Assembly (NCBI GenBank): GCA_037447655.1
Contig: JBBHKE010002124.1
Location: forward strand, 1 to 50,159
Reading direction: 5' to 3'
DNA from: Zygnema cylindricum
Taxonomy: Eukaryota; Streptophyta; Zygnematophyceae; Zygnematales; Zygnemataceae
DNA length: 50,159 nucleotides
Of this stretch, positions 4,195-29,643 are shown piece by piece. The notes beneath the pieces are model-generated. The model did no database searches. It saw only the letters and a program-made list of their open reading frames with translations, and was not told where the DNA came from. The translations under genes were made by a program, and so were the position numbers. How positions within the stretch are numbered: position 1 is the first letter of the stretch; every line of letters begins with the position of its first letter.

Positions 4195-4491
4195 GTTCAT
4201 GTTCACATTCACGTTCACATTCACGTTCACGTTCACATTCACGTTAACGTTCAAATTCACGTTCACATTCAGGTTCACATTGAAGTTCACATTGACGTTC
4301 ACATTGACATTGACGTTCACATTGACATTCACATTCGCGTTCACATTCACAATCACGTTCACATTCACATTGACGTTCACATTGATGTTCACATTGATGT
4401 TCACATTGAAATTCACATTGACGTTCACATTCACGTTCACATTCACGTTCACATTCACGTTCACGTTCACGTTCACGTTCACGTTCACATT
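4195..4491 (+). repeat. Satellite higher-order block, copy 1 (partner at 9009-9305)
   Basis: This stretch begins at a GTTCATG variant and runs through a TTGACR-rich interval. It recurs nearly unchanged 4,814 bases downstream. The order of the A/G choices and of the rare variants is shared, which random hexamer drift would not produce. A second short duplication overlaps its end: the interval around 4,485-4,600 recurs 330 bases later around 4,815-4,935. Confidence 0.85.
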
Positions 4492-5246
4492 CACGTTCAA
4501 TTTCACATTCACATTCAAATTCACATTCAAGTTCACATTCACATTCGAATAAACGTTCACATTCACATTCAAATACACATTCACGTTCATATTCAAATTC
4601 ACGTTAACATTCACAATCACGTTAACATTGACATTCATGTTCAAATTCACATTCACATTCACATTAATGTTCACGTTCAAGTTCACGTTCACATTCACAT
4701 TCACGTTCATATTCACATTCAAATTCACATTCACATTCACATTCAAGTTCACATTCACATTCAAATTCACATTCACATTCATATTCAAATTCACGTTCAC
4801 ATTCACATTCACGTTCACATTCACGTTCAATTTCACATTCACATTCAAATTCACATTCAAGTTCACATTCACATTCGAATAAGCGTTCACATTCACATTC
4901 AAATACACATTCACGTTCATATTCAAATTCACGTTCACATTCACAATCACGTTCACATTCACACTCACGTTCAAATTCACATTCACATTCACATTCATGT
5001 TCACGTTCAAGTTCACATTCACATTCACATTCACATTCACGTTCACATTCACATTAACGTTCACATTCACATTGACGTTCACATTCACATTGACGTTCAC
5101 CTTGACGTTCACGTTGACGTTAACATTGACGTTCACATTAACGTTCATGTTGACGTTCACGTTAACATAAACGTTCACATTCACGTTCACATTGACATTC
5201 ACATTCACATTGATGTTCACATTCACATTCACGTTGACTTTCACAC

Positions 5247-6600
5247 ATTCACATTCACGTTCACATTCACATTCAAGTTCATAATCACATCAAGTTGACA
5301 TTCACATTCGCACTCACATTCACGTTCACATTAACGTTCAAGTTCACATTCTCATTCAAGTTCACATTCACATTCACGTTCACATTGAAATTCACATTCA
5401 CGTTCACATTTACATTCACGTTCGTGTTCACATTCAAGTTCACAATCACATCAAGTTGACATTAACATTCGCACTCACATTAACCTTCATATTCACGTTC
5501 AAGTTCACATTCACGTTCACATTCACATTCACGTTCACATTCACATTCACGTTCACATTGACATTCACATTCACGTTCACATTGACATTCACATTCACGT
5601 TCACATTGACATTCACATTGACATTCACATTCACGTTCACGTTCACATTCACATTCACGTTCATGTTCACATTCACATTCACATTCACGTTCACATTCAC
5701 GTTCACGTTCACATTCACATTCACTTTCAAATTCACGTTCACATTCACGTTCGCATTGAAGTTCACAGTGACGCTCACATTGACATTGGCGTTCACATTG
5801 ACATTCACATTCGTGTTCACATTCACATTGACGATCACATTTACGTTCACATTCACATTCAAGTTCACATTCACGTTCACATTCACATTCACGTTCACAT
5901 TGACATTCACATTCACGTTCACATTAACATTCACATTGACGTTCACATTGATGTTCACATTGAAATTCACATTGACGTTCACGTTGACGTTCACATTCAC
6001 ATTCACATTCGCGTTTACGTTCACGGTTACGTTCACATTCACATTCACATAAACATTCACGTTCACATTCACGTTCACATTCACATTCACATTCACGTAC
6101 ATATTCACTTACATATTCACGTTCATATTCACATTCACATTCACATTAACATTCAAGTTCACCTTCACATTAATGTTCAAATTCACGTTCACATTCGAGT
6201 TCACGATGACATTCACGATCACGTTCACATTCACGTTACAATTCACGTACATATTCACGTTCACATTCAAGTTCACGTTAACATTCACGTTCAAATTCAC
6301 ATTCACGTTCACATTCACGTACATATTCACGTTCATATTCACGTTCACATTCACATTCAAGTTCACATTCACATTCACATTAACGTTCAAATTCACGATC
6401 ACATTCAAGTTCACGATCACATTCACATTCACATTCAAGTTCACGTTAAAATTCACGTTCACGTTCACATTCACGTTTTCATACACGTACATATTCACGT
6501 TCATATTCACGTTCACATTCACATTCAAGTTATCGTTCACATTCACATTCACGTTCAAATTCACGTTCACATTCACGTTCACAATCACATTCACGTTCAC
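5247..6600 (+). repeat. Satellite higher-order block, copy A (partner at 7559-8912)
   Basis: About 1.3 kb that recurs at an exact offset of 2,312 bases. Between 5,247 and 6,529 I found only isolated substitutions, for example G at 5,737 against A at 8,049; T at 6,533 against A at 8,845 follows. Similarity weakens after about 6,600. The offset is not a multiple of six, so the copy moved as a block and not by hexamer slippage alone. Confidence 0.88.
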
Positions 6601-7558
6601 ATTCACGTTCACGTTCACAATCACATTCACATTCACGTTCAAATTCACATTCAAGTTCTCATTCAAATTCACATTCACATTCACATTCACATTCACATTT
6701 ATGTTCATATTCACATTCATATTCATTCACAATCACAAACAAAATCACATTCATGTTCACATTCACATTCACGTTCACATTCACATACACGTTCACATTC
6801 ACATTCACATTCATGTTCACATTAATATTCACATTCAAATTCACGTTCACATTCACGTTCACGTTCACATTCACGTTCACATTCAAGTTCACATTCACGT
6901 TCATATTCACGTTCACATTCACGTTCACATTCACATTTACATTCACTTTCACTTTCACGTTCGAATTCACATTTAAGTTCAAATTCACGTACATTTTCAC
7001 TTTCATATTCAAGTTCACATTCACGTTCACATTCACATTCAAGTTCAAGTTCACTTCAACGTTGAAGTTCATATTCACATTGACGTTCACATTCACATTC
7101 ACGTTCACATTGACATTCACCTTTCACATTCACATTCATGATCATGTTCACATTCACGTTCACATTCACGTTTACATTCACATTCACGTTCACATTCACG
7201 TTCACGTTCACATTCACATTCACGTTCACATTCACATCCAAGTTCACAATCACATCAAGTTGACATTCACATTCGCACTCACATTCACGTTCACATTCAG
7301 GTTCAAATTCACATTCACATTCAAATTCACATTCACATTCACATTCACATTCACATTCAAGTTCACATTCACATTCAAATAAACGTTCACATTCACATTC
7401 ATATTCACATTCACATTTATATTCAAATTCACGTTCACATTCACATTCACACTCACATTCAACTTCACGTTCACATTCACAATAAGGTTCACATTGACAG
7501 TCATGTTCAAATTCACATTCACATTCACATTCATGTTCACGTTCAAGTTCACGTTCAC

Positions 7559-8912
7559 ATTCACATTCACGTTCACATTCACATTCAAGTTCATAATCAC
7601 ATCAAGTTGACATTCACATTCGCACTCACATTCACGTTCACATTAACGTTCAAGTTCACATTCTCATTCAAGTTCACATTCACATTCACGTTCACATTGA
7701 AATTCACATTCACGTTCACATTTACATTCACGTTCGTGTTCACATTCAAGTTCACAATCACATCAAGTTGACATTAACATTCGCACTCACATTAACCTTC
7801 ATATTCACGTTCAAGTTCACATTCACGTTCACATTCACATTCACGTTCACATTCACATTCACGTTCACATTGACATTCACATTCACGTTCACATTGACAT
7901 TCACATTCACGTTCACATTGACATTCACATTGACATTCACATTCACGTTCACGTTCACATTCACATTCACGTTCATGTTCACATTCACATTCACATTCAC
8001 GTTCACATTCACGTTCACGTTCACATTCACATTCACTTTCAAATTCACATTCACATTCACGTTCGCATTGAAGTTCACAGTGACGCTCACATTGACATTG
8101 GCGTTCACATTGACATTCACATTCGTGTTCACATTCACATTGACGATCACATTTACGTTCACATTCACATTCAAGTTCACATTCACGTTCACATTCACAT
8201 TCACGTTCACATTGACATTCACATTCACGTTCACATTAACATTCACATTGACGTTCACATTGATGTTCACATTGAAATTCACATTGACGTTCACGTTGAC
8301 GTTCACATTCACATTCACATTCGCGTTTACGTTCACGGTTACGTTCACATTCACATTCACATAAACATTCACGTTCACATTCACGTTCACATTCACATTC
8401 ACATTCACGTACATATTCACTTACATATTCACGTTCATATTCACATTCACATTCACATTAACATTCAAGTTCACCTTCACATTAATGTTCAAATTCACGT
8501 TCACATTCGAGTTCACGATGACATTCACGATCACGTTCACATTCACGTTACAATTCACGTACATATTCACGTTCACATTCAAGTTCACGTTAACATTCAC
8601 GTTCAAATTCACATTCACGTTCACATTCACGTACATATTCACGTTCATATTCACGTTCACATTCACATTCAAGTTCACATTCACATTCACATTAACGTTC
8701 AAATTCACGATCACATTCAAGTTCACGATCACATTCACATTCACATTCAAGTTCACGTTAAAATTCACGTTCACGTTCACATTCACGTTTTCATACACGT
8801 ACATATTCACGTTCATATTCACGTTCACATTCACATTCAAGTTAACGTTCACATTCACATTCACGTTCAAATTCACGTTCACATTCAAGTTCACAATCAC
8901 ATTCACGTTCAC
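7559..8912 (+). repeat. Satellite higher-order block, copy B (partner at 5247-6600)
   Basis: Second copy of the roughly 1.3-kb block, offset 2,312 bases. The few mismatches indicate a recent duplication by unequal exchange, or an assembly duplication; long reads would separate these. The block includes rare variants such as GACGCTCAC and TTGGCG that mark both copies. Confidence 0.88.
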
Positions 8913-9008
8913 ATTCAAATTCACATTCACATTCACATTCACATTAACATTCACATTCACATTCACATTCACGTTCAAATTCACGTTCACGTTCACATTC
9001 ACATTCAC

Positions 9009-9305
9009 GTTCATGTTCACATTCACGTTCACATTCACGTTCACGTTCACATTCACGTTAACGTTCAAATTCACGTTCACATTCAGGTTCACATTGAAGT
9101 TCACATTGACGTTCACATTGACATTGACGTTCACATTGACATTCACATTCGCGTTCACATTCACAATCACGTTCACATTCACATTGACGTTCACATTGAT
9201 GTTCACATTGATGTTCACATTGAAATTCACATTGACGTTCACATTCACGTTCACATTCACGTTCACATTCACGTTCACGTTCACGTTCACGTTCACGTTC
9301 ACATT
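9009..9305 (+). repeat. Satellite higher-order block, copy 2 (partner at 4195-4491)
   Basis: Partner of 4,195-4,491 at offset 4,814. It follows directly on the 7,559-8,912 block, so the array is a mosaic of re-used segments and not one regular higher-order repeat. Confidence 0.85.
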
Positions 9306-11850
9306 CACTTTCACCATCACATTCACAATCACAATCACATTCACACTCACATTCACGTTCACATTCACGTTCAAATTAAAGTTCACTTTCACGTTCACGT
9401 TCATAATCAAGTTCACATTCACATTCACGTTCACATTCACGTTCACAATCACATTCACATTCAAGTTGACAATCATGTCACAATAACATTCACGTTCACG
9501 TTCACATTCACGTTCACATTCACGTTCACGTTCACATTCACGTTCACGTTCACATTCACATTCACATTAACGCTCACATTCAAATTCACGTTCACATTCA
9601 CATACGTGTTCACATACACATTCACGTTCAGGTTCACAATAACATTCACGTTCACCATCACATTCACGTTCAGATTCACAATAACATTCACGTTCACCTT
9701 CACATTCACGTTAACATTAACGTTGACATTCACATTGACGTTCACGCTCACGTATACGTTCATAATCATGTTCACGTTCAGAATCACATTCACGTTCACG
9801 TTCACATTCACATTCACTTTCACGTTCACATTCACATTGACATTTACTTCACATTCACGTTCCCGTTCACGTTCACATTCACGTTCACATTCATATTCAC
9901 ATTCACACTCACCTTCACGATCACGTTCACGTTCACATTCACCTTCACATTAACGTTAACATTCACATTCACATTCACGCACATTAACACTCACATTCAC
10001 CTTCACCTTCACCTTCACCTTCTCATTCTCACGTTCACGTTCACGTTCACGTTCACGTTCACTTTCACGTTCACATTCACGTTCACCTTCACGTTCACAT
10101 TCACATTCACCTTCCCATTCACGTTCACATTCACGTTCACATACAAGTTCACATTAATATTCACATTCACGATCATGTTCACATTCATATTCACATGTTT
10201 ACGATCAAGTTCACATTCACGTTAACGTTCACATTAACATTCAAGTTCAGCATTCACATTCACATTGGCGTTCACGTTCACATTCACATACGCATTCACA
10301 TTGACATTTTTCACATTTACGTTCACATTTACATTCACATTCACAATCACATTCACATTCATATTCACATTCACATTCACATTCATATTCACATTCATAT
10401 TCACATCCACATTCACATTCACATTCACATTCACATTCATATTCACATTCATATCCACATCCACATTCACATTCACGTTCAAATTCAAGTTCACTTTAAC
10501 ATTCACGTTCAAATTCAAGTTCACTTTCACGTTCACGTTCATAATCAAGTTCACATTCACGTTCACATTCACAATCACGTACACATTCACATTCACGTTC
10601 ACAATCACATTCACGTTCACATTCACATTGACGTTCACATTCACGTTCACAATCACATTCACATTCACATTCACGTTCAAATTCAAGTTCTCTTTTACAT
10701 TCACATTCACATAAAAGTTCACTTTCACGTTCTCATTCACATTCACAGCCACGTTCATATTCACATTCATATTCATTCACAATCACAAACAAATCACATT
10801 CACGTTCACATTCACATTCACGTTCATGTTCACATTAAAATTCACGTTCACATTCACTTTCACATTGACGTTCACATTGAGGTTCACATTGACATTGACG
10901 TTCACATTGACATTCACATTTGCGTTCACATTAACATTGACGTTCGCATAGACATTCACATGGACGTTCACGTTGACGTTCAAGTTTACGTTAACATTCA
11001 CGTTCACATTCACATTCACATTGACGTTCAAATTGACGTTCACATTGATGTTCACATTGATGTTCACATTGACGTTCACGTTGACGTTCATGTTGACGTT
11101 CACATTCACGTTCACATTCACGTTCACATTCAAGGTTACGTTCACATTCACATTCACATAAACATTCACGTTCACATTCAGGTTCGAATTGACGTTCACA
11201 TTCACACTGACGTTCACATTGACGTTCACATTGGCATTCACGTTCGCATTGACATTCACATTGACGTTCACGTTCACGTTCACGTTCATGTTCGCATTCA
11301 CGTTCACATCCACGTTCACATTCACTTCCTTGTTCACGTTCACGTTCACGTTCGCATTGACATTCACATTGATGTTGACGTTGACGTTTACGTTCACATT
11401 CACCTTCACATTCACTTTCACGTTCACATTCACGTTCACTTTCACGTTCACATTCACGTTCACTTTCACGTTCGCATTCACGTTCACATTCACATTCACA
11501 TTCACGTTCACGTTCACATTCACATTCACGTTCACATTCACGTTCACATTCACGTTCACATTCACTTTCACGTTCACATTCACGTTCACTTTCACGTTCA
11601 CATTCACATTCACATTCACGTCCACATTCACATTCACGGCCGCATTCACTCACGTTCACATTCACGTTCACTTTCACATTCACTTTCACATTCACTTTCA
11701 CATTCTCTTTCACGTTCACTTTCACAAACTCGTTCACATTCACATTCACGTTTACATTCATTTTCACGTTCACGTTGACATTCAAATTCACATTCACATT
11801 CACGTTCACATTCACGTTCACATTCATGTTCATATTCATATTCATATTAA

Positions 11851-12430
11851 CATAATTAACTGTTATATAATTATTACAATGTGTGGTTATTATTGGTGGT
11901 TACTGTTGTTTATGGTTTAAACATTAATATGTATAATATATATGTATGTAATTTTTGTATCAAATAGTAATTAATAATTGAAGCAATTATTTTTCTTAAT
12001 AATACTATTTTTTGCATTTAGTTTCTTAGTTCTCATTACATATTGTATTAAACATTTATCATTATTGTCACGTGTCTTACAAGTATCGGAGGGATGTGAG
12101 TTGACCGATGGACGATGGAATGCTTCCACTCAACTGGTTGTAATGTAGATCTCTGTGGCATCGAACACTCAAATGGTCTCTTAATTCATTGCGCTAGCCT
12201 TCAAACCCCATGAGACTTTTTTATTATTATTTTTTTATTGTTGCCACTGTATTGTCACCAATATCTATAATTGATTTTATTTCATTAATTAATAAGATCT
12301 ATATATACTTTAAACATTTTTTGCAATCGCTACTTGTTACTATAAATTAATATTGTTATTATTACCATTATTTAATACCAGTTAGTACTATTTATTGTTA
12401 TTATCATTTATTACTATTCTATTTTATTAT
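11851..12430. other. AT-rich spacer between satellite and polypyrimidine tract
   Basis: Low-complexity A/T-rich sequence with many TTATT and TAATA runs. I see no convincing exon. The only structured part is the tRNA-like patch at about 12,150-12,205. Confidence 0.7.
12150..12205 (-). repeat. tRNA-like patch with A-box and B-box resemblance (possible SINE fragment)
   Basis: On the minus strand a TAGCGCAATGA stretch (12,187-12,197) resembles a Pol III A box. It is followed about 30 bases later by GTTCGATGCC (12,157-12,166), a good B-box match. No intact tRNA cloverleaf is apparent and a tail was not identified. It could be a SINE remnant or chance. Confidence 0.35.
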
Positions 12431-13851
12431 TTCTCCATCTATCTCCCTCTCTCCCTTTTCTCCATCGTCTCTCCCATTAACATTCTCACTCTGCCCCTAC
12501 CACACTCGAACATCCCTTCTAACCTTCTCCCCCTTTCCCCCAACCCCCCTCCCCCCGACCGCTCCCCCTCCCAATCCCCCTCGCCCACCACTTCTTTCCC
12601 TCCCTCCCTCCCTTCCCTTGCCCCCTCCCCCTCCCCTCGCCTTTCCCCTCCACATCCCCCTCCACCCACCCTTAGATCCCCCTCCCCATTCCCTCACTTT
12701 CTCTCTAACCATTAGCCCTCCCCTCCCCGTCCGCCGCCCTCTCCCTCTTCCTTCTCCCCCATCCACCTCCCCTTCCCCCTTCCCCCGCCTCCGCCTTCCC
12801 CTCCCCCACCCTTCCCATCACCCTCCTACCCATTCCTTTCCCCTTCCAAGTCACTCTTCCCTCCCTTTTCCATCCCTACAATCCCCTCCCCTTCCCCCTC
12901 CCTCCCTCTATCCTCCATCCCCCTACTCCTCCACTTCCCCCCCTCCGCCTCCTCTGTCCCTCCCTCCTTCCGTCTCGCTCTACCTCTTCCTCTCTCCCCC
13001 TCTTCCAATACATCTCTCTCCCCCAATCTCTCTTTGTCTCCCTCTCTCCCCTTCTCCCCCTCTCACCCTCTCCCGCTCCACAGCTCCCCCTTCCCACCGC
13101 CCCTCCAACCCCCTCACCCGTCCTCCTCCCCACCCACCCTCCGTCCCTCCCTCAATCTCTCCCACTCCCTTTCTCCTTTCCATCCCCTTTCCCCCTCTCC
13201 TCCTCACCCCCTCTCTCCCTCTTTCATTCCCTCTCTCCCTCACCCCCTCTCCCCCTCCCCCCCTCCTTCCCCCCTCGCTTTTCCACCCTACCTTTCACAC
13301 TCCCCTTTCCCCTCCCTACATTCACCCTCTTTTTCTCCCTCCCTCCCTCCATCTCACCTCCGTCCCTCCCTCCTTTCCTCTCCCTCTACCTCTTCCCCTA
13401 TCCCTCTCACTCTCTCACCTCTTCCTCTCCTTTACTCTCTCCCCCAATTCCTCTCCTTGTCTCCCGATCTCCCCCTTTCCCCCTCTCCCCCTCTCCCGCT
13501 CATCTTGTCCCCCTCTCTCGTTCCCCCTCCCCCTCCTCTCCTCCCCTCCCCCCTCTCCCCTACCTCACCCTCTCCCTCTCCCTCTTTTTCTCTCCCTATC
13601 TCTCTCCCTCTTTCTTCCCCTCCCCCTTTCCCACTCTCCCACTCACCCCCGCTCTCCCTTTTTCCCTCCCTCTCTCCCTCTCTCCCTCCCTCTCTCCCTC
13701 TCTCCCTCTCTCTCCCTCCCCCCCTTTCCTCCTTGCCTCTCCCTCTCGCACTCCCACGCCCTTTACTTCTCCCTCTCTACTCTCTCAATCTATCTAACTC
13801 CCTCGCTCTCTCCCTCTCTCTCCATATCTCTCTCCCTGTCTCACTACCTAT
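12431..13851 (+). repeat. Polypyrimidine (CCCTCTCC-type) tract, left part
   Basis: About 1.4 kb that is nearly all C and T on the plus strand, built from irregular CCCTCC, CTCTCC and CCCTTTCC words. Overlapping Pro/Ser/Leu-rich frames and Gly/Arg/Glu-rich antisense frames are by-products of composition. Mirror-symmetric pyrimidine runs of this kind can form triplex DNA. The tract ends exactly at the Copia-B insertion site and resumes at 33,625 after the CCTAT target duplication. Confidence 0.95.
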
Positions 13852-14131
13852 TGATAGAAAAGGAGCATGGCCAAAAATGGGACATAACATTACATGCAGA
13901 AGCATTCAGTCATGATAGGAGCCCAAAGAATTCTTCAGCAAAAGATTTTATTTAATTGGAGATCTTTCCTCTTTATGGTGTATTTTCTGCCTTCTCCTTT
14001 TGGTATGCTAAACTTTTCACCTGTCTTTTCTAAAATACTTTTGCCTAACCGACTTAAAACTACGAATAACACTTAGTGATAAAACTGAACATAAGGAAAT
14101 GACAAAAGGTAGGCGAATGTGGGCCTAAACA
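13852..14131 (-). repeat. Copia-B left (3') LTR, first part
   Basis: Aligns with the start of the right LTR at 33,047, sharing TGATAGAAAAGGAGCA and the AAGCATTCAGTCATGATAGG region. It is interrupted at 14,132 by Copia-A; the last five bases, AAACA, are the target duplication repeated at 20,112-20,116. Confidence 0.92.
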
Positions 14132-14592
14132 TGATAGGATCGATACACTTATAAATAGAAAAAAAAAAAAAATTGATTGCGGAAGCAAAGATGAAAGGAA
14201 GAGATCACTCCAGCAAAAGACAAAAGTATATTTCACCGGAAATTTTCCTCCCCTCTTACAAAAGATAAATTCTTTCCCCAAACGACTAAGTCCTAAATAG
14301 TCTCACACGAAACAAACAAGTACTGCAAGGTACAAATGAATCGTGCGACGTACCAAAGTACGCGCGCGAACCAATCACAACAAAGTACTACCGAAATAAC
14401 ATAAAGTACGCAGTACTGTACGAAACAACATACCGCCGTACAAAACAAGAGTCCGTCGTACAAACCAAAACAAAATAAACCAAAGACTATAACTAACTAA
14501 TCACGCCACACCACACAAATCACACGCTAATTAAATAATATATTTTACGGCGCTCAACAGAACTGAGACGCCGTTTCACAAAGAACCTAACA
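14132..14592 (-). repeat. Copia-A 3' LTR (left on this strand)
   Basis: 461 bp, TG...CA on either strand. It contains ten GTAC tetramers within about 150 bp (roughly 14,319-14,462). Identical by eye to the partner at 19,649-20,111 apart from the A-run length. Confidence 0.96.
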
Positions 14593-14606
14593 ATCCCCCT
14601 CTCTTT
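14593..14606 (-). promoter_or_regulatory. Polypurine tract of Copia-A
   Basis: On the element strand AAAGAGAGGGGGAT directly abuts the TG of the 3' LTR, the expected place and composition for the plus-strand DNA primer. Copia-B has the related GAAGAGGAGGAT at 20,379-20,390. Confidence 0.88.
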
Positions 14607-14619
14607 GTGAAACCCCCTC

Positions 14620-16182
14620 TTAAACTGCAAACAATCCTAATTTAGGTCTACCCCGTAATAGGACATCATAGACCGCCGCTTTCGTTAACATATCTGCGGC
14701 CTCCTCCAAAGTCGACACGTATAAAAATTCGATTTCCCTCGCTGCGACCAGATCTCGTACGAAGTGCCACTGTATCCGGATATGTTTCGTCCGCTTGTGA
14801 AAGACCGGATTTTTCACAAGCGACATCGAGCTCATGCTGTCAGTAAAAATCTGCAGACAGCCAATCACAATCCCCAACTCACCAAGCATCTCTTTGATCC
14901 ACACGGATGCTTTTGATGTGTGACACGCCGACATATATTCGGCCTCAGTAGAGCTTAGCGCAACCGTAGGTTGGAGCCGCGAACTCCAAGAAACCGCCGC
15001 GCCGCCCAAAACAAATGCGTACCCTGACGTGGACTTTCCACTATCGAAATCTCCTCCCCAATCAGCGTCGCAGAAAGCGATACACTGCAAAGGGTCTTGT
15101 TTGGACTTATATACCAAGCCAAACTCAACCGTACCAACCAGATAGCGAAATATTCGTTTCACTGCATCCCAATGATTCTTTTTCGGAGCGTTGCAGTAAC
15201 GACTGACAAGTGACACCGCCGCCGCAATATCCGGACGCGTGCCTACGCTTAGGTACATTAAACTACCTACTGCCTCACGATATGGAACAGATACATTTTC
15301 TTCCTCTTCGTACTTTCTATACTGTACTTTTGGATCTAATGGCGTCGAGACAGGTTTCGCGCCAATCATACCAAATCTAATCAAGACCTCTCTACAATAC
15401 TGAGCTTGACTTAATTTAATTACACTCTCGTTGGACCTTATGACTTCTATCCCCAAAATGTAACGAACTTCTCCAAGATCTGTCACTTTAAAGTGTACTC
15501 TGAGGTACTCTTTTAACTCATTAATGACAGACAGCTTGTCACTAATCATTAGAAAGTCATCGACATACACAGAAAAAATAATTTGGTCCTTTCCCTCTCC
15601 TTTAACGTACACTCCGGAATCTGAAACTGTACGAACGAAACCAAAGTCAGTAAGTACCTGATGAAGACGAAGGTACCAAGTCCTCGGCGCTTGTTTTAAT
15701 CCGTACAAGGATTTTCGCAGCCGCCATACTTTTCCTTCTTTTGAAGGCACACCCTCGGGCACCTTCATGTAAACCTCCTCTTCTAATTCTCCATTTAAAA
15801 AAGCTGTTTCTACGTCCATTTGATGTATATGCTTATTCCCCGCGGCCGCAATAGCAATAATCATTCTCAAAGAATCAAATTTAACAACCGGTGCATAAGT
15901 TTCCGAATAATCAACCCCCTCTATTTGTTGAAAACCTTTACACACCAATCTAGCCTTATATTTTATTATCTCCCCCGTAGCACCAGTTTTTGTTTTAAAT
16001 ATCCACTTGGCATCAATCGCCTTCTTCCCCTCCGGTAAGCTCACCTCCTCAAAAGTTTTGTTATCGATGATGGATTTTAATTCTCTCTCCCACGACGGTT
16101 TCCACTTATCCTCCCAATCCATGGAACTTCGTGCCTCGGCGTAAGATTGGGGATCGCCGGGCATATTCTCGGTCAATGATTG
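14620..16182 (-). CDS. pol (RT-RNH): Copia-A reverse transcriptase-RNase H module
   Basis: Open frame that starts right after the UAG at 16,183-16,185; its first Met is at 16,176 and the numbering below counts from it. Visible RT features: a KWIFKTKTG-type N-terminal segment, HQMDVETAFLNGELEEEVYM, and the catalytic YVDD at residues 204-207. The connection is followed by Copia RNase H with CDADWGG (D370, D372) and STEAEYM (E411), ending at the 3' polypurine tract. It copies the element RNA into DNA and degrades the template inside virus-like particles. Length of about 520 residues is normal for a Copia RT-RNH. No start codon context is needed if it is made by readthrough of the upstream UAG, since the frame is continuous with the integrase linker across that codon. 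Current expression from this copy is doubtful because the 101-bp duplication upstream shifts the frame. Confidence 0.93.
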   Translation of the reverse strand, partial: QSLTENMPGDPQSYAEARSSMDWEDKWKPSWERELKSIIDNKTFEEVSLPEGKKAIDAKWIFKTKTGATGEIIKYKARLVCKGFQQIEGVDYSETYAPVVKFDSLRMIIAIAAAGNKHIHQMDVETAFLNGELEEEVYMKVPEGVPSKEGKVWRLRKSLYGLKQAPRTWYLRLHQVLTDFGFVRTVSDSGVYVKGEGKDQIIFSVYVDDFLMISDKLSVINELKEYLRVHFKVTDLGEVRYILGIEVIRSNESVIKLSQAQYCREVLIRFGMIGAKPVSTPLDPKVQYRKYEEEENVSVPYREAVGSLMYLSVGTRPDIAAAVSLVSRYCNAPKKNHWDAVKRIFRYLVGTVEFGLVYKSKQDPLQCIAFCDADWGGDFDSGKSTSGYAFVLGGAAVSWSSRLQPTVALSSTEAEYMSACHTSKASVWIKEMLGELGIVIGCLQIFTDSMSSMSLVKNPVFHKRTKHIRIQWHFVRDLVAAREIEFLYVSTLEEAADMLTKAAVYDVLLRGRPKLGLFAV

Positions 16183-16185
16183 CTA
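16177..16185 (-). promoter_or_regulatory. Candidate programmed readthrough stop (UAG CAA UCA), Copia-A
   Basis: Codons across the junction read Phe-Ile-Leu-UAG-Gln-Ser-Leu. The frame upstream is the integrase C-terminal linker and the frame downstream is RT, with no shift between them. UAG followed by CAA UCA fits the UAG-CAR-YYA consensus known from tobamovirus replicase readthrough. The same stop in the same alignment column with CAA UUA is found in Copia-B (29,644-29,652). Readthrough is inferred from context and conservation, not shown. Confidence 0.7.
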
Positions 16186-16384
16186 CAAAATAAATGCCTC
16201 CTCCGAGGCATCCGAAATAAAATAATTGGAATTTTCGACATTTCCACCTTTGCGATCAAATGATAACCGATCCGGCTTCTTCCCCCTCGTCTCACGTTGA
16301 CTCCTTCGTAATGGAACCTCATTTTCTTTTTCGTTTGCGGATTTTTCTTTTTCAAATTCGGGTTCTTTCTCGTGGAAAGAAACG

Positions 16385-16586
16385 TTCGGAGATTTAGAAC
16401 TTGTAGATCGACGAATGTCCGAAGACATTCGGGATTTTTCACTTCGGATCTCGTCAAAATTAATCAATTCCGGATGAGTTTCGGATTCGGAGATTTAGAA
16501 CTTGTAGATCGACGAATGTCCGAAGACATTCGGGATTTTTCACTTCGGATCTCGTCAAAATTAATCAATTCCGGATGAGTTTCGGA
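16385..16586. repeat. 101-bp tandem duplication inside Copia-A pol
   Basis: Two adjacent identical copies, 16,385-16,485 and 16,486-16,586, each starting TTCGGAGATTTAG. As 101 is not a multiple of three, translation leaving the upper copy enters the second copy out of frame and stops about 11 codons later. The correct frame continues from the second copy through the linker to the UAG. It is either a disabling mutation of a young element or an assembly artefact. Confidence 0.95.
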
Positions 16587-19500
16587 ATTAGCTTTCCCCC
16601 TCTTAATATTGACGATCGGATCCGCGTCAATTTCGGAATCCGAGTCATCGAGATGTGGAAAAGTGAGAGAATCATTCACGTCAAGAAAGTCATGATTAGA
16701 AGAGTATTTTTCCGAACGAGAAATTGCAAATTTTAGATCCTCATGAAAATTGACATTACGACTCTCTTCCACTACATGACGGATCGGATCATACACCCGG
16801 TATAAACTCCCTTTGGAGCTATACCCCACAAAAATTCCCGACCAACTACGAGAAGAAAATTTACCTCGTCGCTTTACCGATTCGATGTACACCGTCGCTC
16901 GACATCCCCAAATTCGTAAATGATGTAATGAGGGCTTTCGACCATACCAAAGTTCATGAGGAGTCTTAATGCCCGAAATAGAGGTAAGTCGACGATTGCA
17001 AATATAATTAGCCGTTAAGATCGCATCCCCCCACAAAAACTCTTTTCTTCCCGATCCATGAATCATCGAGCGAACCATTTCTTGAAGAGTTCGATTTTTC
17101 CGCTCGGCGATTCCGTTCGATTCCGGTGAGTATGATGCCGTAAATTCTTGTCGTATCCCCCATTTCTTGCAATAAGGATCAAATGCCTTGAATTCTCCAC
17201 CATTATCCGATCGAACCGCCTTTAATTTCCGCTCGCATTGCCGTTCGGCCATTACATGCCACTCCTCAAATTTCGCGGAAGCATCGGATTTATTTTTGAG
17301 TAAGTATACCCAAGTAAATCTTGAGTAGTCGTCGACAATAACCATTATATATTTATTCCCCCCCAAACTTTCAGGCTTGACGTCACCACAGAGATCCACG
17401 TGTACTTTTTCAAGTGGGTGAGTTGACCGGAAATTCGTATCTTTAGTGGGATGGGGTTTGCGGATCTGTCGCCCTTGATTACAGCCGTCACAGCCGTTGA
17501 CTTTTTCGCCTGATGTCAGATCTAAGCCGCGCGTGCAACCGGCTTTGATCATACGTTTCAGATTCTGTTCTGACGTATGGCACATACGGTGATGCCATAG
17601 CGTCAGATCGCCCTTAATTTCGGCGATCTGTCCAATAATGCCGTCATCATGACGCTTTGACTTTGGACGCTTCCATAAAAGACGACTATGGAATGCGTCA
17701 GATACTTCTCCCTCACCGATCGTAACTCCATCTGATCGTACAATTTTGATCGTGGAATCTCCCAATGCGTACACGCTTGCACCAGCTCGCTGGATCTGCG
17801 GCACGCTCAGAAGATTTGCGGAGCCGCCCGGAATGTAAAGGACGTTCAACAGCTGGATTTCGGAGATTCGCTCAGATCCATTTGGATCTAGCGAAATCAA
17901 ATCGAGGCGTACGGTACCAACTGTACCGACAGAGATAGTTTGACCGCTAGCGACAGTGATTCTTTTTGGTACGGTCAAGGCACGCATTTCGTCGAAAAGT
18001 GTGCCGTCCGTACAAACGTGATGCGAGGCTCCGGAATCGATAATCCACTCTTTGTCGTTTTGCGCTTCAAAGTTTGGTTCGTCGTTGGCACTTAGCGTCG
18101 AGAACGTAATCGGTCCTTCCTCCTTCTCATCATTTTCCCCGACGAAGTGTCCATGGCCGCCGAATCGGCCGCCACGTCCACCGCGCCCTCCCCCTCTAAA
18201 TCGTTCACCGCCTCGTCCAGCGAATCTGCCGCCGCCGCCGCCATTCCCGCCGCGGCCACCACCATTGTCAGATCTCGCGTAACATTGGGGACTAATATGT
18301 CCCCACTTTCCACAATAATGGCATTGTTTTTCTTTATCCGGACAAGAGGAGGACATGTGACCGGCTTTATTGCAGCGAAAACACGTAACTGCAGACTGGT
18401 CTTGGAAAGGAGGTTGACCGGGAAAGTTTCCCCTCCTTTCGGTGCTTCTTCCCCTTCCCCTAGATCCGCCTCCTCTTCCCCTTCCCCCTCTTCCCCCACG
18501 GAGAAAATTGAGATCCGCGGGTTCTTCGGAGGATGCGTTTAGAGATCCACCCGAAGCCGAAGCTTTAGGAGGACCTCCTCGATTTCTCTCGGTTGTCTTG
18601 AGGTAATTTACGAGAAACTCATAACTCGGATTTGTTTGAGCCCAAAGAATCTCCTTGAGGTAAGTAAGATTGTCGGGTAAAGCATTGATGAGACCGATTA
18701 CTTTGTCTTCCTCGATGATAGTCCGGCCGTTATTCGAGAGTTGCTCCACAATAATATTGTATCGCTTGATTGCATCATCAATCGATTCGTTAGACTTTAT
18801 CTTAAATTGGATAAAGTCCGTGTAAGCATATTGCCCCTTGTTTTGGAGTCCCTTCTCAAATTGACCTTCGAGCGCCTTCCAACACTCGTGCGCCGTATCT
18901 CGGGTAAGAAAATGATCATGCACCGATGAGGTACAAGATTGCATAAGGCCGGTGATTGCGGCAAGATTTTTCTTCTTCCAAAGGCGACGAGCCTTCGGAT
19001 CGTCGATCGGCATCTTTTCTTCTCCATTCACGATCTTCCAAAGGTGACGGAGGATAAGTTGTGCCTTGATATATTTCTTCCATATTTGATAGTTAGATCC
19101 GTTGAAGAGGACGATCTTCCCCGGCATAGAAGGGATCGGTAACTCGTCATCGGATTCATATTCAAGATCCGAGTCGTTCTCGATCACAAACTTCCCTTTT
19201 CGGAGAGCATCCCTCAAAATATCGTCATCCTCGACCCCTCCATCCGAAGCCACTTCAAAAGTATTCAAGATCGGATCTTCCTCCTCCACTTTAAACTTCC
19301 CCTTTCGATTGGCATCCGTGATCCGTTGATCTACTAGAGTAAGAAAGCCGTCAAACAACTCATTGAGGCGATCTTCGGTCAGCACCACCCCTTCTTGTTT
19401 CTCTTTCTCCTCTTTTGGAAGTGGGTTGGAGGGAGAGCCCTTTTCAAAAGTCGTCTCTCCTCCGAAGCCGAAATCTTTCACACTCTGATCTGGAGATGAA

Positions 19501-19607
19501 TCGGCCAGATCCGGTGGATCCGGTAGATCCGGATTAGGAGCCGCAATAGGAGAAGGAGTGGATGAGGACTTCTTCTTCTTTCCCCCCATGGCGGCGAGAC
19601 TTGCCAC
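16464..19607 (-). CDS. gag-pol: Copia-A Gag-protease-integrase polyprotein (truncated by duplication)
   Basis: 1,047 residues from an ATG 28 bases after the primer site. The N-terminus is Lys-rich (MGGKKKK at residue 7) and acidic/Pro-rich. The Gag capsid region lies around residues 160-350 (FNGSNYQIWKKYI). Two RGG-rich stretches flank two CCHC zinc knuckles at C409-C422 and C429-C442, typical nucleocapsid RNA-binding elements. The aspartic protease has DSGAS with D524. Integrase has the zinc motif H673/H677/C706/C709 and catalytic D738, D801 and E835; the D-E spacing is slightly shorter than usual. Gag, protease and integrase are one uninterrupted frame, so no gag/pol recoding site exists here and the only candidate recoding signal lies downstream, before RT. 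The last 11 residues are aberrant owing to the 101-bp duplication. Confidence 0.95.
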   Translation of the reverse strand: MASLAAMGGKKKKSSSTPSPIAAPNPDLPDPPDLADSSPDQSVKDFGFGGETTFEKGSPSNPLPKEEKEKQEGVVLTEDRLNELFDGFLTLVDQRITDANRKGKFKVEEEDPILNTFEVASDGGVEDDDILRDALRKGKFVIENDSDLEYESDDELPIPSMPGKIVLFNGSNYQIWKKYIKAQLILRHLWKIVNGEEKMPIDDPKARRLWKKKNLAAITGLMQSCTSSVHDHFLTRDTAHECWKALEGQFEKGLQNKGQYAYTDFIQFKIKSNESIDDAIKRYNIIVEQLSNNGRTIIEEDKVIGLINALPDNLTYLKEILWAQTNPSYEFLVNYLKTTERNRGGPPKASASGGSLNASSEEPADLNFLRGGRGGRGRGGGSRGRGRSTERRGNFPGQPPFQDQSAVTCFRCNKAGHMSSSCPDKEKQCHYCGKWGHISPQCYARSDNGGGRGGNGGGGGRFAGRGGERFRGGGRGGRGGRFGGHGHFVGENDEKEEGPITFSTLSANDEPNFEAQNDKEWIIDSGASHHVCTDGTLFDEMRALTVPKRITVASGQTISVGTVGTVRLDLISLDPNGSERISEIQLLNVLYIPGGSANLLSVPQIQRAGASVYALGDSTIKIVRSDGVTIGEGEVSDAFHSRLLWKRPKSKRHDDGIIGQIAEIKGDLTLWHHRMCHTSEQNLKRMIKAGCTRGLDLTSGEKVNGCDGCNQGRQIRKPHPTKDTNFRSTHPLEKVHVDLCGDVKPESLGGNKYIMVIVDDYSRFTWVYLLKNKSDASAKFEEWHVMAERQCERKLKAVRSDNGGEFKAFDPYCKKWGIRQEFTASYSPESNGIAERKNRTLQEMVRSMIHGSGRKEFLWGDAILTANYICNRRLTSISGIKTPHELWYGRKPSLHHLRIWGCRATVYIESVKRRGKFSSRSWSGIFVGYSSKGSLYRVYDPIRHVVEESRNVNFHEDLKFAISRSEKYSSNHDFLDVNDSLTFPHLDDSDSEIDADPIVNIKRGKANSETHPELINFDEIRSEKSRMSSDIRRSTSSKSPNPKLIRN

Positions 19608-19634
19608 CTTGAGAACTCTTAATGGAGCAAACTA

Positions 19635-19646
19635 GCTCCGATACCA
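19635..19646 (-). promoter_or_regulatory. Primer binding site of Copia-A (3' end of initiator tRNA-Met)
   Basis: On the element strand TGGTATCGGAGC follows two bases after the 5' LTR. It matches the plant tRNA-iMet site TGGTATCAGAGC with one mismatch. Confidence 0.93.
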
Positions 19647-19648
19647 CT

Positions 19649-20111
19649 TGATAGGATCGATACACTTATAAATAGAAAAAAAAAAAAAAAATTGATTGCG
19701 GAAGCAAAGATGAAAGGAAGAGATCACTCCAGCAAAAGACAAAAGTATATTTCACCGGAAATTTTCCTCCCCTCTTACAAAAGATAAATTCTTTCCCCAA
19801 ACGACTAAGTCCTAAATAGTCTCACACGAAACAAACAAGTACTGCAAGGTACAAATGAATCGTGCGACGTACCAAAGTACGCGCGCGAACCAATCACAAC
19901 AAAGTACTACCGAAATAACATAAAGTACGCAGTACTGTACGAAACAACATACCGCCGTACAAAACAAGAGTCCGTCGTACAAACCAAAACAAAATAAACC
20001 AAAGACTATAACTAACTAATCACGCCACACCACACAAATCACACGCTAATTAAATAATATATTTTACGGCGCTCAACAGAACTGAGACGCCGTTTCACAA
20101 AGAACCTAACA
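19649..20111 (-). repeat. Copia-A 5' LTR (right on this strand)
   Basis: 463 bp, followed by target duplication AAACA at 20,112-20,116. Apart from the A-run (16 against 14) I found no difference from the left LTR. Confidence 0.96.
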
Positions 20112-20116
20112 AAACA

Positions 20117-20378: not shown

Positions 20379-21534
20379 ATCCTCCTCTTCGATGTGGAAA
20401 ATTGCAAACAAGAATGCATTTCATGCTAACCCTAATTTTGAACGACCTCCGACAAACACATCATAGGTAGTCAACGTACTAAGTAAATCTGCGGCATCTT
20501 CCAAAGTCAACACGAATACAAAATCCACCTCTTTTAAATTGACCAAATCACGCACAAAATGCCATTGAATATAGATGTGCTTTGTACGCTTGTGAAATAC
20601 GCGATTTTTAACAAGTGCCACAGAACTCATGCTATCTCTAATAATTTGCAAACACACATTCCAAATCTTCAATTCACCGAGCATCTCTTTTAACCAAGTT
20701 GATGCTTTAGCAACATGACAAGCCGCCATTTACTCAGCCTTCGTTGAACTTAATGCAACTATCGGTTACAAACTTGAACTCCACGAAACTGTTGCACCGC
20801 CGAACACGAACACGAATGCGTATCCAGACATTGACTTTCCAAAATCGTAATCTCTTGCCCAGTCAGAATTGGAGTAACCAATGCAACTTGTCGATTTGTA
20901 CGTCAATCCCATATCAATCGTACCGGCCAAACATCAAAAGTTATGCTTGACGGCCTCCCAATGCGATTTCTTTGGTTCATGACAGAATCGACTCAAAGTT
21001 GAAAATGCCGCCGCATATCCGGACGAGTGCCCACACTCAAGTACATAAGACTTTCGATGGCTTCTCGATATGGAACGTCGACCAACAATTCATCCTCAAA
21101 CTTTCTTAAATGACACTTAGGATCCATAGGCGTAGAAAGTGGTTTTGCATTTGACATGCCTAACCGCGCTAATACTTCTCTGCAATACTGAGCTTGACTC
21201 AGTTTGTTATCTCCATTAGGATATCTAATAACTTTGATCCCCAAAATGTAACTAACGTCTCCAAAGTCTGTTACCTTAAACTAAAGGCATAGAAAGGCCT
21301 TCAATTCGTTGATTTTGTCTAAATTATCCAACGTCATCATAAAATCGTCTATGTAAACTAGGAACATTATTTGGTCATTTCCTTCCCCCTTAATGTAAAC
21401 GCCCGAATGTAAAGTAGTCCGTTTCAATCCAAATTTGTTTAACACCGAATGCAACCGTAAGTAAGAAGAACAAGGGGCCTGCTTTAACCCATACAAAGAC
21501 TTGCTTTAGCCCGTACAAAGACTTGCTTTAACCC
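20379..21534 (-). pseudogene. Copia-B RT C-terminal part and RNase H, degenerate
   Basis: Fragments match Copia-A: an RT piece with YIDD near 21,340, a RPDM/AQYCREVL segment near 21,000-21,240, and the RNase H tail with DSMSSVALVKN and RTKHIYIQWHF at about 20,420-20,730. At least three frameshifts or stops separate them. The right end is cut by Copia-C within the LYGLKQAP-type RT motif, where a short AACCCRTACAAAGACTTG unit is present in extra copies. Confidence 0.9.
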
Positions 21535-24510: not shown

Positions 24511-24830
24511 GGTTGGTCACGACTTTTGGGGCCTCTTCGGAAGTCTTTTTGGTGTCGTCTCTTTCTTTTGAGTCGAAGTCGGGGTCCTTCTTCTTCCATT
24601 CCTCTAGAATCACCTCCTTTGCCTCCTCCATGGGCTAGACGACTGCTACACCAATAGTTTCCCCTTTTTTGAGTGCCCTCGTAAGCTGTAAGGCCGAAAG
24701 TAGGCGTCCCTCTTCCACTCCTTTACCAGCCGCTCCCGCTTTAACCTCAAACTCTTCTTCACCCTTCTTCACTCTCATAGCCCCACTTCTCCAATCGATC
24801 ATTCTTCTTAAACCAAAAACCACTCAAAAG
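24511..24830 (+). other. Unassigned segment between LTR-like block and protease
   Basis: About 320 bases that do not resemble Gag or protease, with Ser/Pro-rich translation in one frame. The first 80 bases could be the start of a gag related to the 23,517-24,510 block. No further identity is claimed. Confidence 0.4.
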
Positions 24831-26355
24831 CATGCAGAGATTCTACGGAGACAAAAGTGTGCTTTCGGAGGTAAGAAGGATCCACCTGTGGATGGGTGGA
24901 TCATAGACTCAATGGCCTCAATGCATATGTGCAAGGATAAGAGGTGGTTTACTAAATTAAGGAAAATTCCAACAGTTGAGATAGAGTATGGAGATGGTAG
25001 AGTACAAACCACAAGTCTTGTTGGATCGGTTGATTTAAAGGTTCTAGTTGATGGAAAGGTTTCAATTATAACACTCTCAGATGTTCTTTACATTCCACAT
25101 CTTAGCAAGAATCTAGTCTCCACAGCTGTTTTAGATGAAAAAGAGTTCAAAACCGGAACTAAGAAAGGAATCTTCACAACCAGCTTAGATAATGAGGTTT
25201 ATTTCGTAGCTGAAAAGGGTAGTCAAGGAATGTTCAGAATTGTAATTTGCAATAAAAAAGGTGTTCTCTACTCGTGTGGAAGTGATATGATGCTTTGGCA
25301 GAAGAGGTTGGGGCATGTGAATCCAGATAGATTTAAGAAAATGAAGAAAAATAGAATAGTGGAGGGAATTGTGTTTGGAGATGATGAGACCTCAGATGAT
25401 TGTAGTGGATGTGCCCAATGGAAGATTCTTAGACTTCCATTTCCAAATGCATCCACATTTAGAAGAGAGAAAGTATTAGATCTAGTTCACACTGATGTTT
25501 GGGGACCAGCTAGGTATGCTTCACATGGAGGGAAAAGATGGATGCTAACCATTACAGATGATTGGTCTAGCTACACTAAGGCATATTTTCTTAGACATAA
25601 GTTAGAGGTACTAAGATATTTCAAAGAATACAAAGTATGGAGTGAAAAATTACATGAAACCTCAATAAAGAGATAAGAAGTGATAATGGGAAAGAATACA
25701 CCTCAAAGGAATTTGAAGAGTTTCTTAAAGAAGAAGGAATCCATCAGGAGAAAACTATTCCTTATAATCCGAAACAAAATGGAGTAGCATAAAGAGTAAA
25801 TAGAACTTTAGGAGATTTGTCTAAAAGTATGCTAACTGATAAAAGAATAGGATTGCATTTTTGAGCTGATTCTATGAACTATGCTAATTTCATCAAAAAC
25901 AGAGTGCTAACTTCGGCAAATAAGGAAGAAACTCCGTATAAAAGATGGACAGGAAGAAGAAGATGGAAGAAGAAGAAGAAGATGGACCAGATTTTTCTAG
26001 CTTGAGAGTGTTCGGAAGTCAAGTCTACAGTTTGGATTCCGATAAGACTAAATGGAAGTTAGAGGGAAGAGGGAAACCAGGATATCTTGTAGGATATGAT
26101 GAGAGCACAAAAGGATATCGAGTGTATGACTTGAAAAAGAGAGATATCATTTTGGTAAAACACATAGTGGTGATGAATGAAGAAAAGTCAGTTGATCCAT
26201 TCAAATATAACAAGGAAGTCAAAATCAGATTTGAAACGGGTCAGTTTTCTGACTTTGACTTTGGAAATGAAGAGAAAGAATATTGGAAGAAAGAAAAATC
26301 TGCAGATGTACCAAAAGACAAGGAGGAAAAGACAACACCCGAGCTAACGCCATAA
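24831..26355 (+). pseudogene. pol (PR-INT): Copia-C protease and integrase, degenerate
   Basis: Protease: WIIDSMASMHMC (about 24,897-24,932), where the usual D-S/T-G is Asp-Ser-Met. Integrase: zinc motif with RLGHVNPDRFKKM and CSGC, then HTDVWGP and TITDDWSSYTKAYF. A frameshift near 25,675 precedes the second catalytic region RSDNGKEYTSKEF. The codon of the catalytic Glu in the GVAERxNRTL motif is TAA (about 25,790). A further frameshift lies near 25,950 before the LRVFGSQVYS and GYLVGYDESTKGYRVYD segment, and a TAA ends the linker at 26,353-26,355. Clearly inactive. Confidence 0.9.
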
Positions 26356-28180
26356 TACGAAATGGAAACCAACGAGGAATTTGATGAGACATCGGAATTG
26401 GAAGATTGGGGAGATGAAAATCTTCCTAAACGGAACCCGAAGATGCCTTCCATACCCGCGTCCGATTTTGAAGGAGGAAGAAGTAGTAAACGACTTCAAG
26501 AAATACAAAGAAATAACCAACTCACAAAGATGTCTCACCCAGATGAACCTCAGACATACTTAAAAGCCATAAATACCCCAGAAAGTAATCGGTGGATCAC
26601 TGCCATCAATGAGGAAATGTCTTCCATCATGGAAGCCAATGTCTTCCATCATGGAAGCCAATGTCTTCCATCATGGAAGCCAATACATGGGAATTGGTAG
26701 ATTGTCCACCAGACAGAAAATCGATTAGATGTAAGTGGGTTTTTAAGCTTAAACTAAACCCAAATAATACCATTGAAAGGTACAAAGCTAGGTTGGTTGC
26801 TAAAGGTTATACTCAGAAAGAAAGAATAGACTATGAATTAACTTTTGCACTCGCAGTCAGATTCCCTTCAGTCAGAATCTTTTTAAGTTTAGCCGCAGCA
26901 GAGAATATAGAAATACACCAGATGGATATTATAACCCCCCCCGCCTTCTTACACGGAGAGTTGAAAGAAAAAATCTACATGAGGCAACCGAAAGAATTTG
27001 TGGAAAGTGGAGAAAAAAGCAAGGTATGTAAACTGATAAAATCACTTTATGGCCTTAAACAGGCCCCGTGACAATAGAACATAAAAGTGGATGAAATTTT
27101 GATTGGTTTGGGGTATATCAGAATTAGTTCGGATCACTCCATATATCTATTTGAGGATGAGAATAGAGTGATATTTATTGCTATTTATGTTGATGATTTG
27201 TTAGTGTTAAGCAAGTCATTAGATAAGTTTAACAAACTAAAATAAGATCTGAGAAGTTGGTTCGATATGAAAGATCTCGACGAAGCAAAGTACATTTTGG
27301 TAATTCAAATGGAGAGAGATAGAGGGAATAGAATTATAAGACTCACTCAAAAAAAAGCTATCGGTAATATGCTAGAAAACTTCAGATGGAGAAAGTAAAT
27401 AGATGTACCACTCCCATGTATCTGAAAAAGGTGTCGGAGGGGAGTGAGGAGGGAAGAATATTGATTTTGAATGAAGAGATGGATGAGGAAGAAAAGATGT
27501 TTATGGAAGGGATTCCTTATCGACAGATTGTAGGCAGTTTAATTTACTTTATGAACTGTACATGTCTGGACATAGCTGCGGCTTTAGGTATTCTCAGTAG
27601 AAGTCTAAATGAACATAGGAAAATAGACTGGGAAGCAGCCAAAAGAGTGATGAGATATTTGGTGGGAACAAGGGAATTATGGTTGCATTTGGGAGGGGAG
27701 CACACTGATATCACTACTTGGAGTGATGCCAGTTATGGGGATGTGCCTTTAAGACGATGTACAACTAGATATGTGTTGCAAATTTGATCTGGTGCATGCT
27801 GTTGGAGTAGCAAACAGCAGAATGAAATTGCTCAGTCCACTATGGAGGCTGAATATATGGCTTCATGTGCTGCCACTAAAGAATTAATGTGGGTAAAATC
27901 TCTACTCGAAGAACTTAGGTTCATGAAATCTGGGACTCAAAATGTCTTTTGTGATAATCAAGCTGCTATCTCTATCGCAGCTAATCCAAAACACCCTTTC
28001 AAAGCTAAACATATGGATATAAGACTAAGCTTTGTCAGAGAGAAGGTTGAGAATAAAATAATTAAACTGATTCATAAAAGTGATATAGAGATGATTGCAG
28101 ACATGATGACAAAACCGGTACCTTCTCTTAAGTTGAAATTTTGCAGAGAAAATTGTGGACTTAAATTAAAAGTTGAGTAA
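26356..28180 (+). pseudogene. pol (RT-RNH): Copia-C reverse transcriptase and RNase H, degenerate
   Basis: RT pieces: ESNRWITAINEEMSSI, then KWVFKLKLNPNNTIERYKAR and LIKSLYGLKQAP followed by a stop at 27,069. YVDD lies near 27,187-27,198, and a LVGTRELWLHLGG/SDASYGD region near 27,660-27,740. RNase H runs from STMEAEYMASCAATKELMWV to FCDNQAAISIAANP and MMTKPVP, ending 28,180. The short insertion Ile-Ile-Thr-Pro-Pro in the MDVKTAFL-type motif and the 22-bp triplication add to the damage. Confidence 0.9.
26617..26682. repeat. 22-bp triplication in Copia-C RT
   Basis: ATGTCTTCCATCATGGAAGC plus CA occurs three times at 26,617, 26,639 and 26,661. The extra 44 bases shift the reading frame at the start of RT. 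TTCCATCATGGAA inside the unit is a perfect palindrome, which may have promoted slippage. Confidence 0.95.
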
Positions 28181-29172: not shown

Positions 29173-29643
29173 AACCCGTACAAAGACTTCCCTCACCTTC
29201 TCTTCTTTCGAGTCAACTCCTTCAAGGATCTTCATGTACACTTCTTCCTCAAGTTCTCGGTTCAAAAGCGCGATTTCAACATCCATTTAAAGGATGTGTT
29301 TTTTTTCAACTGCTGCAATCGCCATAATCATCCATAAAGAGTCAAAATTTACAATTGGCGCATATGTCTCTGTAAAATCATTTCCTTCCTATTGTTGAAA
29401 GCCTTTGCATACTAGTTTAGCTTTATACTTTATTACTTCTCCCAAAGCACCAATTTTTTTCTTGAATACCCACTGCGATTCGATCGCCTTTTTCCCCTCG
29501 GGTAAATCAGCTTCTTCAAATGTTCGCTTCTCTACTATGGACTTAAATTCTTTCTCCCAATCCGGCTGCCATTTTGACTCCCAATCACCCGAATTTCGTG
29601 ATTCAAAGTAAGATCGGGAGTCACTAGCGTACTTTTTACAAAG
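29173..29643 (-). pseudogene. Copia-B RT N-terminal part
   Basis: Minus-strand translation matches Copia-A from the residues after the UAG (SRSY, ESKWQPDWE, FKSIVEKRTFEE, YKAKLVCKGFQ) up to the Copia-C insertion. The rest of RT resumes at 21,534. Frameshifts and stops are present. Confidence 0.88.

Follow-up and report, generated by a model that had tools for sequence, protein, structure and literature searches.

Retroelements of the window

The window, that is, the whole stretch of DNA analysed (50,159 nucleotides), comes from Zygnema cylindricum contig JBBHKE010002124.1 and carries an element, Copia-A, on the minus strand at 14132–20111, together with remains of two others, Copia-B and Copia-C. 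The features of Copia-A are as follows.

14127–14131: target-site duplication AAACA, left flank
14132–14592, minus strand: 3′ LTR, 461 bp, from LTR-to-LTR comparison
14620–16182, minus strand: RT-RNase H frame, 520 codons followed by TAA (14622–14620); RVT_2, E 4.9e-80
16385–16586, minus strand: perfect, frame-shifting tandem duplication of 101 bp in the INT/RT linker, the two copies 100% identical
16464–19607, minus strand: Gag-PR-INT open frame, with ATG at 19589–19587 and its end at 16466–16464 owing to the duplication
19635–19646, minus strand: putative primer-binding site TGGTATCGGAGC, adjoining the 5′ LTR
19649–20111, minus strand: 5′ LTR, 463 bp
20112–20116: target-site duplication AAACA, right flank

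The LTRs (461/463 bp) are bounded by TG...CA and flanked by the short target-site duplication; they show no substitutions, their sole difference being the length of a poly-T run. TGGTATCGGAGC resembles a primer-binding site for initiator tRNA-Met, and a purine-rich tract precedes the 3′ LTR. Pfam matches in the upstream frame comprise Retrotran_gag_2 (E 1.3e-22), zf-CCHC (zinc knuckle; 20.1 bits, slightly below the Pfam cut-off of 20.8), Pol_BBD, gag_pre-integrs, rve and SH3_retrovirus, all in one frame, with RT found only after the stop; the claim that Gag, the PR region and INT form a single frame therefore holds. RVT_2, spanning residues 39–280 of 518, is the only Pfam match in the RT frame, the remainder of which is presumably RNase H, an assignment made by position only. 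Integrase (rve) thus precedes RT (RVT_2), and with this order, the LTRs and target-site duplication, and a Copia-type Gag and RVT_2, Copia-A is a Ty1/Copia LTR retrotransposon. A gap of 27 bp separates the end of the RT frame (14620) from the 3′ LTR (14592), and no env-like ORF lies downstream of RT-RNase H in Copia-A, the copy inspected for one.

The 101-bp duplication, located upstream of the stop as originally described (16385–16586, minus strand), puts Gag-PR-INT out of phase, so that the Copia-A frame ends at 16466–16464, before the junction TAG. Among the 31 fetched loci that contain the unit it is doubled in the window copy only, and the duplication therefore looks private to Copia-A; its origin would be replication slippage in a very recent insertion or, alternatively, an error in the assembly.

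Copia-B and Copia-C are represented by the following pieces.

20427–21502, minus strand: 3′ part of Copia-B RT, 60–67% identity to Copia-A
24897–28114, plus strand: INT and RT pieces of Copia-C, a different Copia lineage, with sense codons at the INT/RT boundary
29194–29643, minus strand: 5′ part of Copia-B RT, decayed, 65% identity to Copia-A
29920–32592, minus strand: remnants of the Copia-B Gag-to-INT region, broken into several pieces

The presumed LTR pieces of Copia-B, 79–91% alike, mark it as an old element. The order and strand of its RT halves suggest that later insertions separated them, and the places of the two elements suggest that Copia-A inserted into the Copia-B 3′ LTR. The Copia-C region (24669–28114, plus strand) lies between both parts of Copia-B RT, and its linker consists of sense codons, apart from decay.

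Elsewhere in the window, long arrays of degenerate 6- and 12-base repeats occupy 246–11920 and leave both strands with long open frames (NVNV, TFTF/HIHI) which, by their appearance, are probably not genes. Long pyrimidine-rich (CT) tracts adjoin the retroelements at 12618–13955 and 33612–34082, and the assembly has a run of ten Ns at 38374–38383. Scanning the window for Rfam families and tRNAs gave no hits.

The stop codon between integrase and reverse transcriptase

Three features define the junction.

16177–16182, minus strand: CAA UCA hexamer directly 3′ of the Copia-A stop, fitting the CAR-YYA readthrough consensus
16183–16185, minus strand: UAG stop at the INT/RT junction of Copia-A (TAG in 135/142 placed genomic copies)
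29644–29652, minus strand: TAG CAA TTA of Copia-B (TAGCAATTA), at the same column as the Copia-A stop in an alignment ungapped around the junction

In Copia-A, where the nine bases read TAGCAATCA (16177–16185, minus strand), the linker (frame from 16485) is open up to TAG and the RT frame continues without a shift. Positions and frame thus bear out the original prediction that linker and RT share one frame, parted by UAG CAA UCA alone; it proved equally correct that Copia-B has UAG CAA UUA at the same column, and that the stop and CAA UYA are kept between diverged flanks. TAG and CAA are identical in the two elements and the third base of TYA is kept, while codons −2 (ATT in Copia-A, CTC in Copia-B), −1 (TTG, CTC), +3 (TTG, CTT) and +4 (ACC, TGT) all differ. 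Synonymous sites are saturated between the elements (pS 0.76–0.77; pN 0.22 in RT and 0.30 in INT). Aligned to Copia-A, Copia-B has 13 in-frame stops in 1351 codons, five of them TAG (two low-complexity rows at 33.6–33.9 kb being left out of this count), so the odds that a stop would fall by chance at the Copia-A stop column are roughly 1%, and for TAG specifically roughly 0.4%. As a comparison of two copies only, this made a shared stop likely.

The nine-base motif is not rare in the window, with three matches against 1.58 expected and three or more in 18/100 shuffles, and the evidence is therefore its position, not the string. The third match, TAGCAACCA (26794–26802, minus strand), falls within the region of Copia-C, which is on the plus strand, and is expected by chance. 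Further in-frame CAR-YYA codon pairs were absent from the 1564 codon pairs of Copia-A and the 1327 of the Copia-B pieces. Across the genome, TAGCAATYATTGAC occurs 42 times, compared with three for the reversed pattern.

INT/RT junctions were surveyed in the window's own assembly (352,776,454 bases, 2,689 contigs). The query, 199 RT N-terminal residues whose first lies four codons beyond the stop, excluded the signal altogether. Junctions were read in the best 150 of 151 matches, obtained from 19,527 first-look candidates in this one genome, as 70 stretches of 2.3–3.6 kb and 80 of 211–262 bases. In-frame placement was achieved for 142, of which 140 were placed via a flanking motif and two by hand on the motif (L135, L158); the 142 include L136, whose column was misplaced. 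Eight junctions (L037, L048, L054, L066, L083, L100, L106, L131) were left unplaced and outside the counts, being frame-shifted or rearranged; some of them look frame-shifted around the same motif.

Among these 142 best-scoring relatives the stop column held TAG in 135, TAA in two, AAG in three and TGG in one, the remaining junction being the misplaced one, and TAG CAR YYA was present in 130. The 140 motif-placed junctions included 110 with TAG CAA TCA and 15 with TAG CAA TTA, and their +1 glutamine codon was CAA in 135 and CAG in one. An RT frame of 510–530 codons was found in 23 of the 66 placed long loci (22 TAG, 1 AAG); when at least 300 open codons upstream were also demanded, counted over at most the 596 codons fetched, 12 intact copies were left, and 12/12 had TAG. 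A hand count gave open frames of 516–522 codons in 45 of the 150 listed relatives, six of which had a stop inside the match. The two outcomes that would have spoken against a functional signal, a sense codon in most intact members or random codons after the stop, therefore do not hold among the copies read, and the survey rules out a chance coincidence of two decayed copies.

Since the listed copies are related by descent, the counts cannot be taken as so many separate events; what can be treated as independent are the subfamilies, at least five in number, whose junctions read (asterisk, stop) AFIL*QSLTENMPG, DDFLL*QSLCENKPG, EDFLL*QSLCENSAG, TEFLL*QLMCENLAG and TEFLL*QSLTENMTG. The best matches of Copia-B are close to the third of these, EDFLL*QSLCENSAG. 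Scans of viral contigs and of genome contigs found no relatives, and a PDB sequence search gave no match at E 0.001.

In four copies the column of the stop holds a sense codon: TGG in L018, and AAG in L038, L056 and L110. Over 170 nt the nearest neighbours of L018, L038 and L056 have TAG or, further down, TAA, and the sense codons of these three therefore look derived; L038 has a TAG sister, L051, at ≥97% identity. L110 is nearest over the junction to L038, and then to TAG copies. The sense-codon copies thus appear to be mostly tips, with one possible small group, L038/L110.

The INT/RT split is not general among the Copia elements of this genome. A Pfam search listed 150 RVT_2 rows, 58 of which, by hand count, lie in a single open frame of 1,447–1,489 codons, and three such relatives that were fetched have 49–51% identity to Copia-A RT, have sense codons through the linker and resemble Copia-C.

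Age of the stop and competing explanations

The coding sequence on both sides of the stop is under purifying selection. Median dN/dS was 0.196 on the INT side (47/66 pairs) and 0.123 on the RT side (5/66 pairs), pairs with dS outside 0.1–2 being excluded; values below 1 on both sides had been named as support in the original prediction, and for pairs with usable dS they are well below it. One very close pair gave an RT dN/dS of 0.91 at dS 0.01. Between subfamilies, where every sixth RT pair was viewed, dS was 2.7 or undefined (at or past saturation) and dN 0.12–0.16. RT so close to synonymous saturation, together with purifying selection, indicates that the stop arose long ago and that it has been bypassed. 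In comparisons of RT between five subfamily members, any two share 43–50% of third bases and all five agree in 61/494 columns, whereas three consecutive columns (stop, +1 and +2) keep their third base in all five. The +1 CAA alone is weak evidence, since, of nine other glutamine columns invariant across the five RTs, five likewise use a single codon, and CAA is favoured there 53 to 15. Stop-bearing copies have also multiplied recently: 28/66 long loci have a sister at ≥97% over 1,200 nt, and all such pairs are TAG/TAG except L038/L051. What the data show is where the stop lies, its frame and context, how old and how nearly fixed it is, and the selection on both sides of it, along with the absence of a conserved start codon past it and of the stop itself from another Copia lineage of this genome.

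An old, bypassed stop could be explained in several ways. In the published work that bears on them, cited here by PMC number, there is precedent at gag/pol for splicing, both in the Ogre polyprotein (PMC6317226) and in Drosophila copia (PMC2194720). TAG could accordingly be a 3′ splice site, retained RNA giving Gag-PR-INT and spliced RNA an RT-containing product, and a U-rich tract does precede TAG in most copies. How exceptional this tract is depends on the measure: only 2/55 YAG sites of Copia-B, the junction included, are as pyrimidine-rich upstream as its junction, but 24/55 are equally T-rich; in Copia-A 10/63 are as T-rich as its junction, but 28/63 are equally pyrimidine-rich. Another AG lies within 15 nt upstream in 55/85 distinct junctions, and inspection by eye of the 1.4 kb upstream, where five subfamily members share 11 GTs, found a consistent donor context at none of them. 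Splicing would also leave the kept CAA YYA 3′ of TAG unexplained, and CAG replaces TAG in 0/142 junctions. We consider it unlikely. Separate translation of RT, whether through reinitiation downstream of the stop or by use of an internal promoter or start, is less likely still. It has been proposed for Tca2, whose pol is driven by a junction promoter according to an extract of PMC2194720, and a methionine does occur within the first 16 codons past the stop in 99 of 137 stop-bearing junctions. The position of that methionine is, however, not conserved among the 12 intact copies: six have none in the first 100 codons past the stop, in another the first is at codon 54, within RVT_2, and the other five have theirs at +3 or +7. 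Nor would a separate start require the same frame, or CAA YYA.

Could the stop instead be a neutral or inactivating mutation of a master copy, whose defective offspring were mobilised in trans by stop-free helpers? Copia-A is young, its LTRs being free of substitutions, but its frame is disrupted: the damage either followed insertion or did not prevent mobilisation. Sense codons are also found in four copies, among which L038 and L110 are closely related. On the other hand, the stop predates at least five subfamilies that are near synonymous saturation in RT and under purifying selection on both sides, the 150 listed Copia-B relatives include no stop-free subfamily and no frame of more than 522 codons, and the sense codons of L018, L038 and L056 look derived, as described above. 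A relaxed stop, moreover, would not favour TAG over TAA and TGA, which among the 137 stop-bearing junctions stand at 135:2:0. This account, too, is very improbable. Reassignment of UAG as a sense codon in the host would account for uninterrupted expression, but has a probability close to nil and was rejected: the TAG-free RVT_2 frames of 1,447–1,489 codons in the same genome (58/150 listed rows) make UAG an unlikely sense codon, and the two frames of Copia-A contain TAG at the junction only.

Readthrough as the proposed mechanism, and known systems

The explanation we favour, and hold to be very probable from the sequence pattern, is that the lineage uses tobamovirus-type (type I) UAG readthrough at INT/RT for two-level expression of its polyprotein. 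Most ribosomes would stop at UAG and release Gag-PR-INT, while a minority would insert an amino acid there and go on in frame to make Gag-PR-INT-RT-RNase H; in the particle, integrase would then be in step with Gag, and RT-RNase H scarce. The driver of readthrough would be the UAG CAA UYA context. Two features expected of a type I site are present, namely UAG followed by CAR YYA (130/142) and a long, in-frame, selected coding sequence downstream. Recoding at gag/pol, as in an element of the Tca2 type, is not seen in Copia-A, where Gag, the PR region and INT share one frame. Readthrough itself, how often it occurs, which amino acid is inserted and the resulting protein ratio are what we infer from this pattern.

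Work on tobamoviruses gives a measure of what such a context can do. In a plant dual reporter, the TMV context gave 32% readthrough and that of BNYVV 11%, and changing the TMV UAG to UAA or UGA lowered readthrough (extract of PMC2754532); for TMV, CAR-YYA is described as the sole determinant of readthrough (extract of PMC2194720). RNA structure gave no clear signal at the junctions. Fold z-scores were −0.39 (Copia-A) and −3.71 (Copia-B) for 110 nt from the stop, and −1.87 and −1.67, with differing folds, for 120 nt around it. RNAalifold on six sequences found no significant shared structure, its score being reached by 9/100 column shuffles, and on six thinned sequences the score was matched by 8/200 codon-column shuffles. 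A weak common pairing, CAAUC ... GAUUGGG, lies about +35 to +75 nt past the stop (e.g. L041:1786–1920); it may be at most a hint, and possibly reflects coding conservation only.

Retroelements are commonly held to need far more Gag than enzymes. If readthrough operates as proposed, integrase would be on the abundant side and RT alone would be scarce, raising the question of what the ratio rule protects. The single-frame Copia lineage in the same genome offers a natural comparison, and more than 100 genomic UAG CAA UYA sites, kept over deep divergence, could show what such sites require.

Among plant Copia elements, those of the REXdb lineages resemble Copia-A in having LTRs, PR-INT-RT order and a primer site adjoining the LTR. 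Plant polyproteins are described, in section 13 of PMC6317226, as one ORF or as split after GAG or GAG-PROT; the split of the present lineage, by contrast, lies after INT. The original prediction that no described Copia lineage recodes at INT/RT agrees with that account, and a literature search, which covered few subscription papers and many sources in extract, found no description of a Copia element with a recoding stop at this point. SIRE1 (Sirevirus) is likewise a Copia element with one in-frame stop dividing its coding region, and suppression of that stop has been reported (extracts of PMC2829016 and PMC2194720), but it follows RT-RNase H and precedes an env-like ORF, whereas the stop described here lies inside pol, between INT and RT. 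In some sireviruses a UAG immediately 3′ of the gag terminator is conserved (extract of PMC5009743); there, the junction is gag/pol and pol is in the +1 frame, while here the stop is in frame and after INT.

Further afield, Tca2/pCal, a Copia element of Candida albicans, also has an in-frame stop dividing its polyprotein, although this is a UGA at gag/pol with a potential pseudoknot, and pol is expressed from a junction promoter (extract of PMC2194720), in place of the UAG at INT/RT found here. In Moloney murine leukaemia virus, in-frame UAG readthrough sets the level of polymerase (extracts of PMC2194720 and PMC5009743), as we propose for this lineage; the viral site is at gag/pol and has a pseudoknot, while ours is after INT and has no significant shared structure. 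The closest likeness at the level of the signal is to the type I tobamovirus site, UAG CAA UYA within the broader CAR-YYA consensus, which has the same stop and the same six following bases, in the one case in the context of a viral replicase and in the other in a retrotransposon. Probably, then, the recoding point of a Copia lineage has shifted from gag/pol into pol, at INT/RT, by means of a tobamovirus-type leaky UAG that would leave integrase in step with Gag and ration only RT-RNase H, and it has been kept in subfamilies, at least five in number, that are old and have been active recently. Signal and class of element are both known; it is their arrangement that appears to be new.
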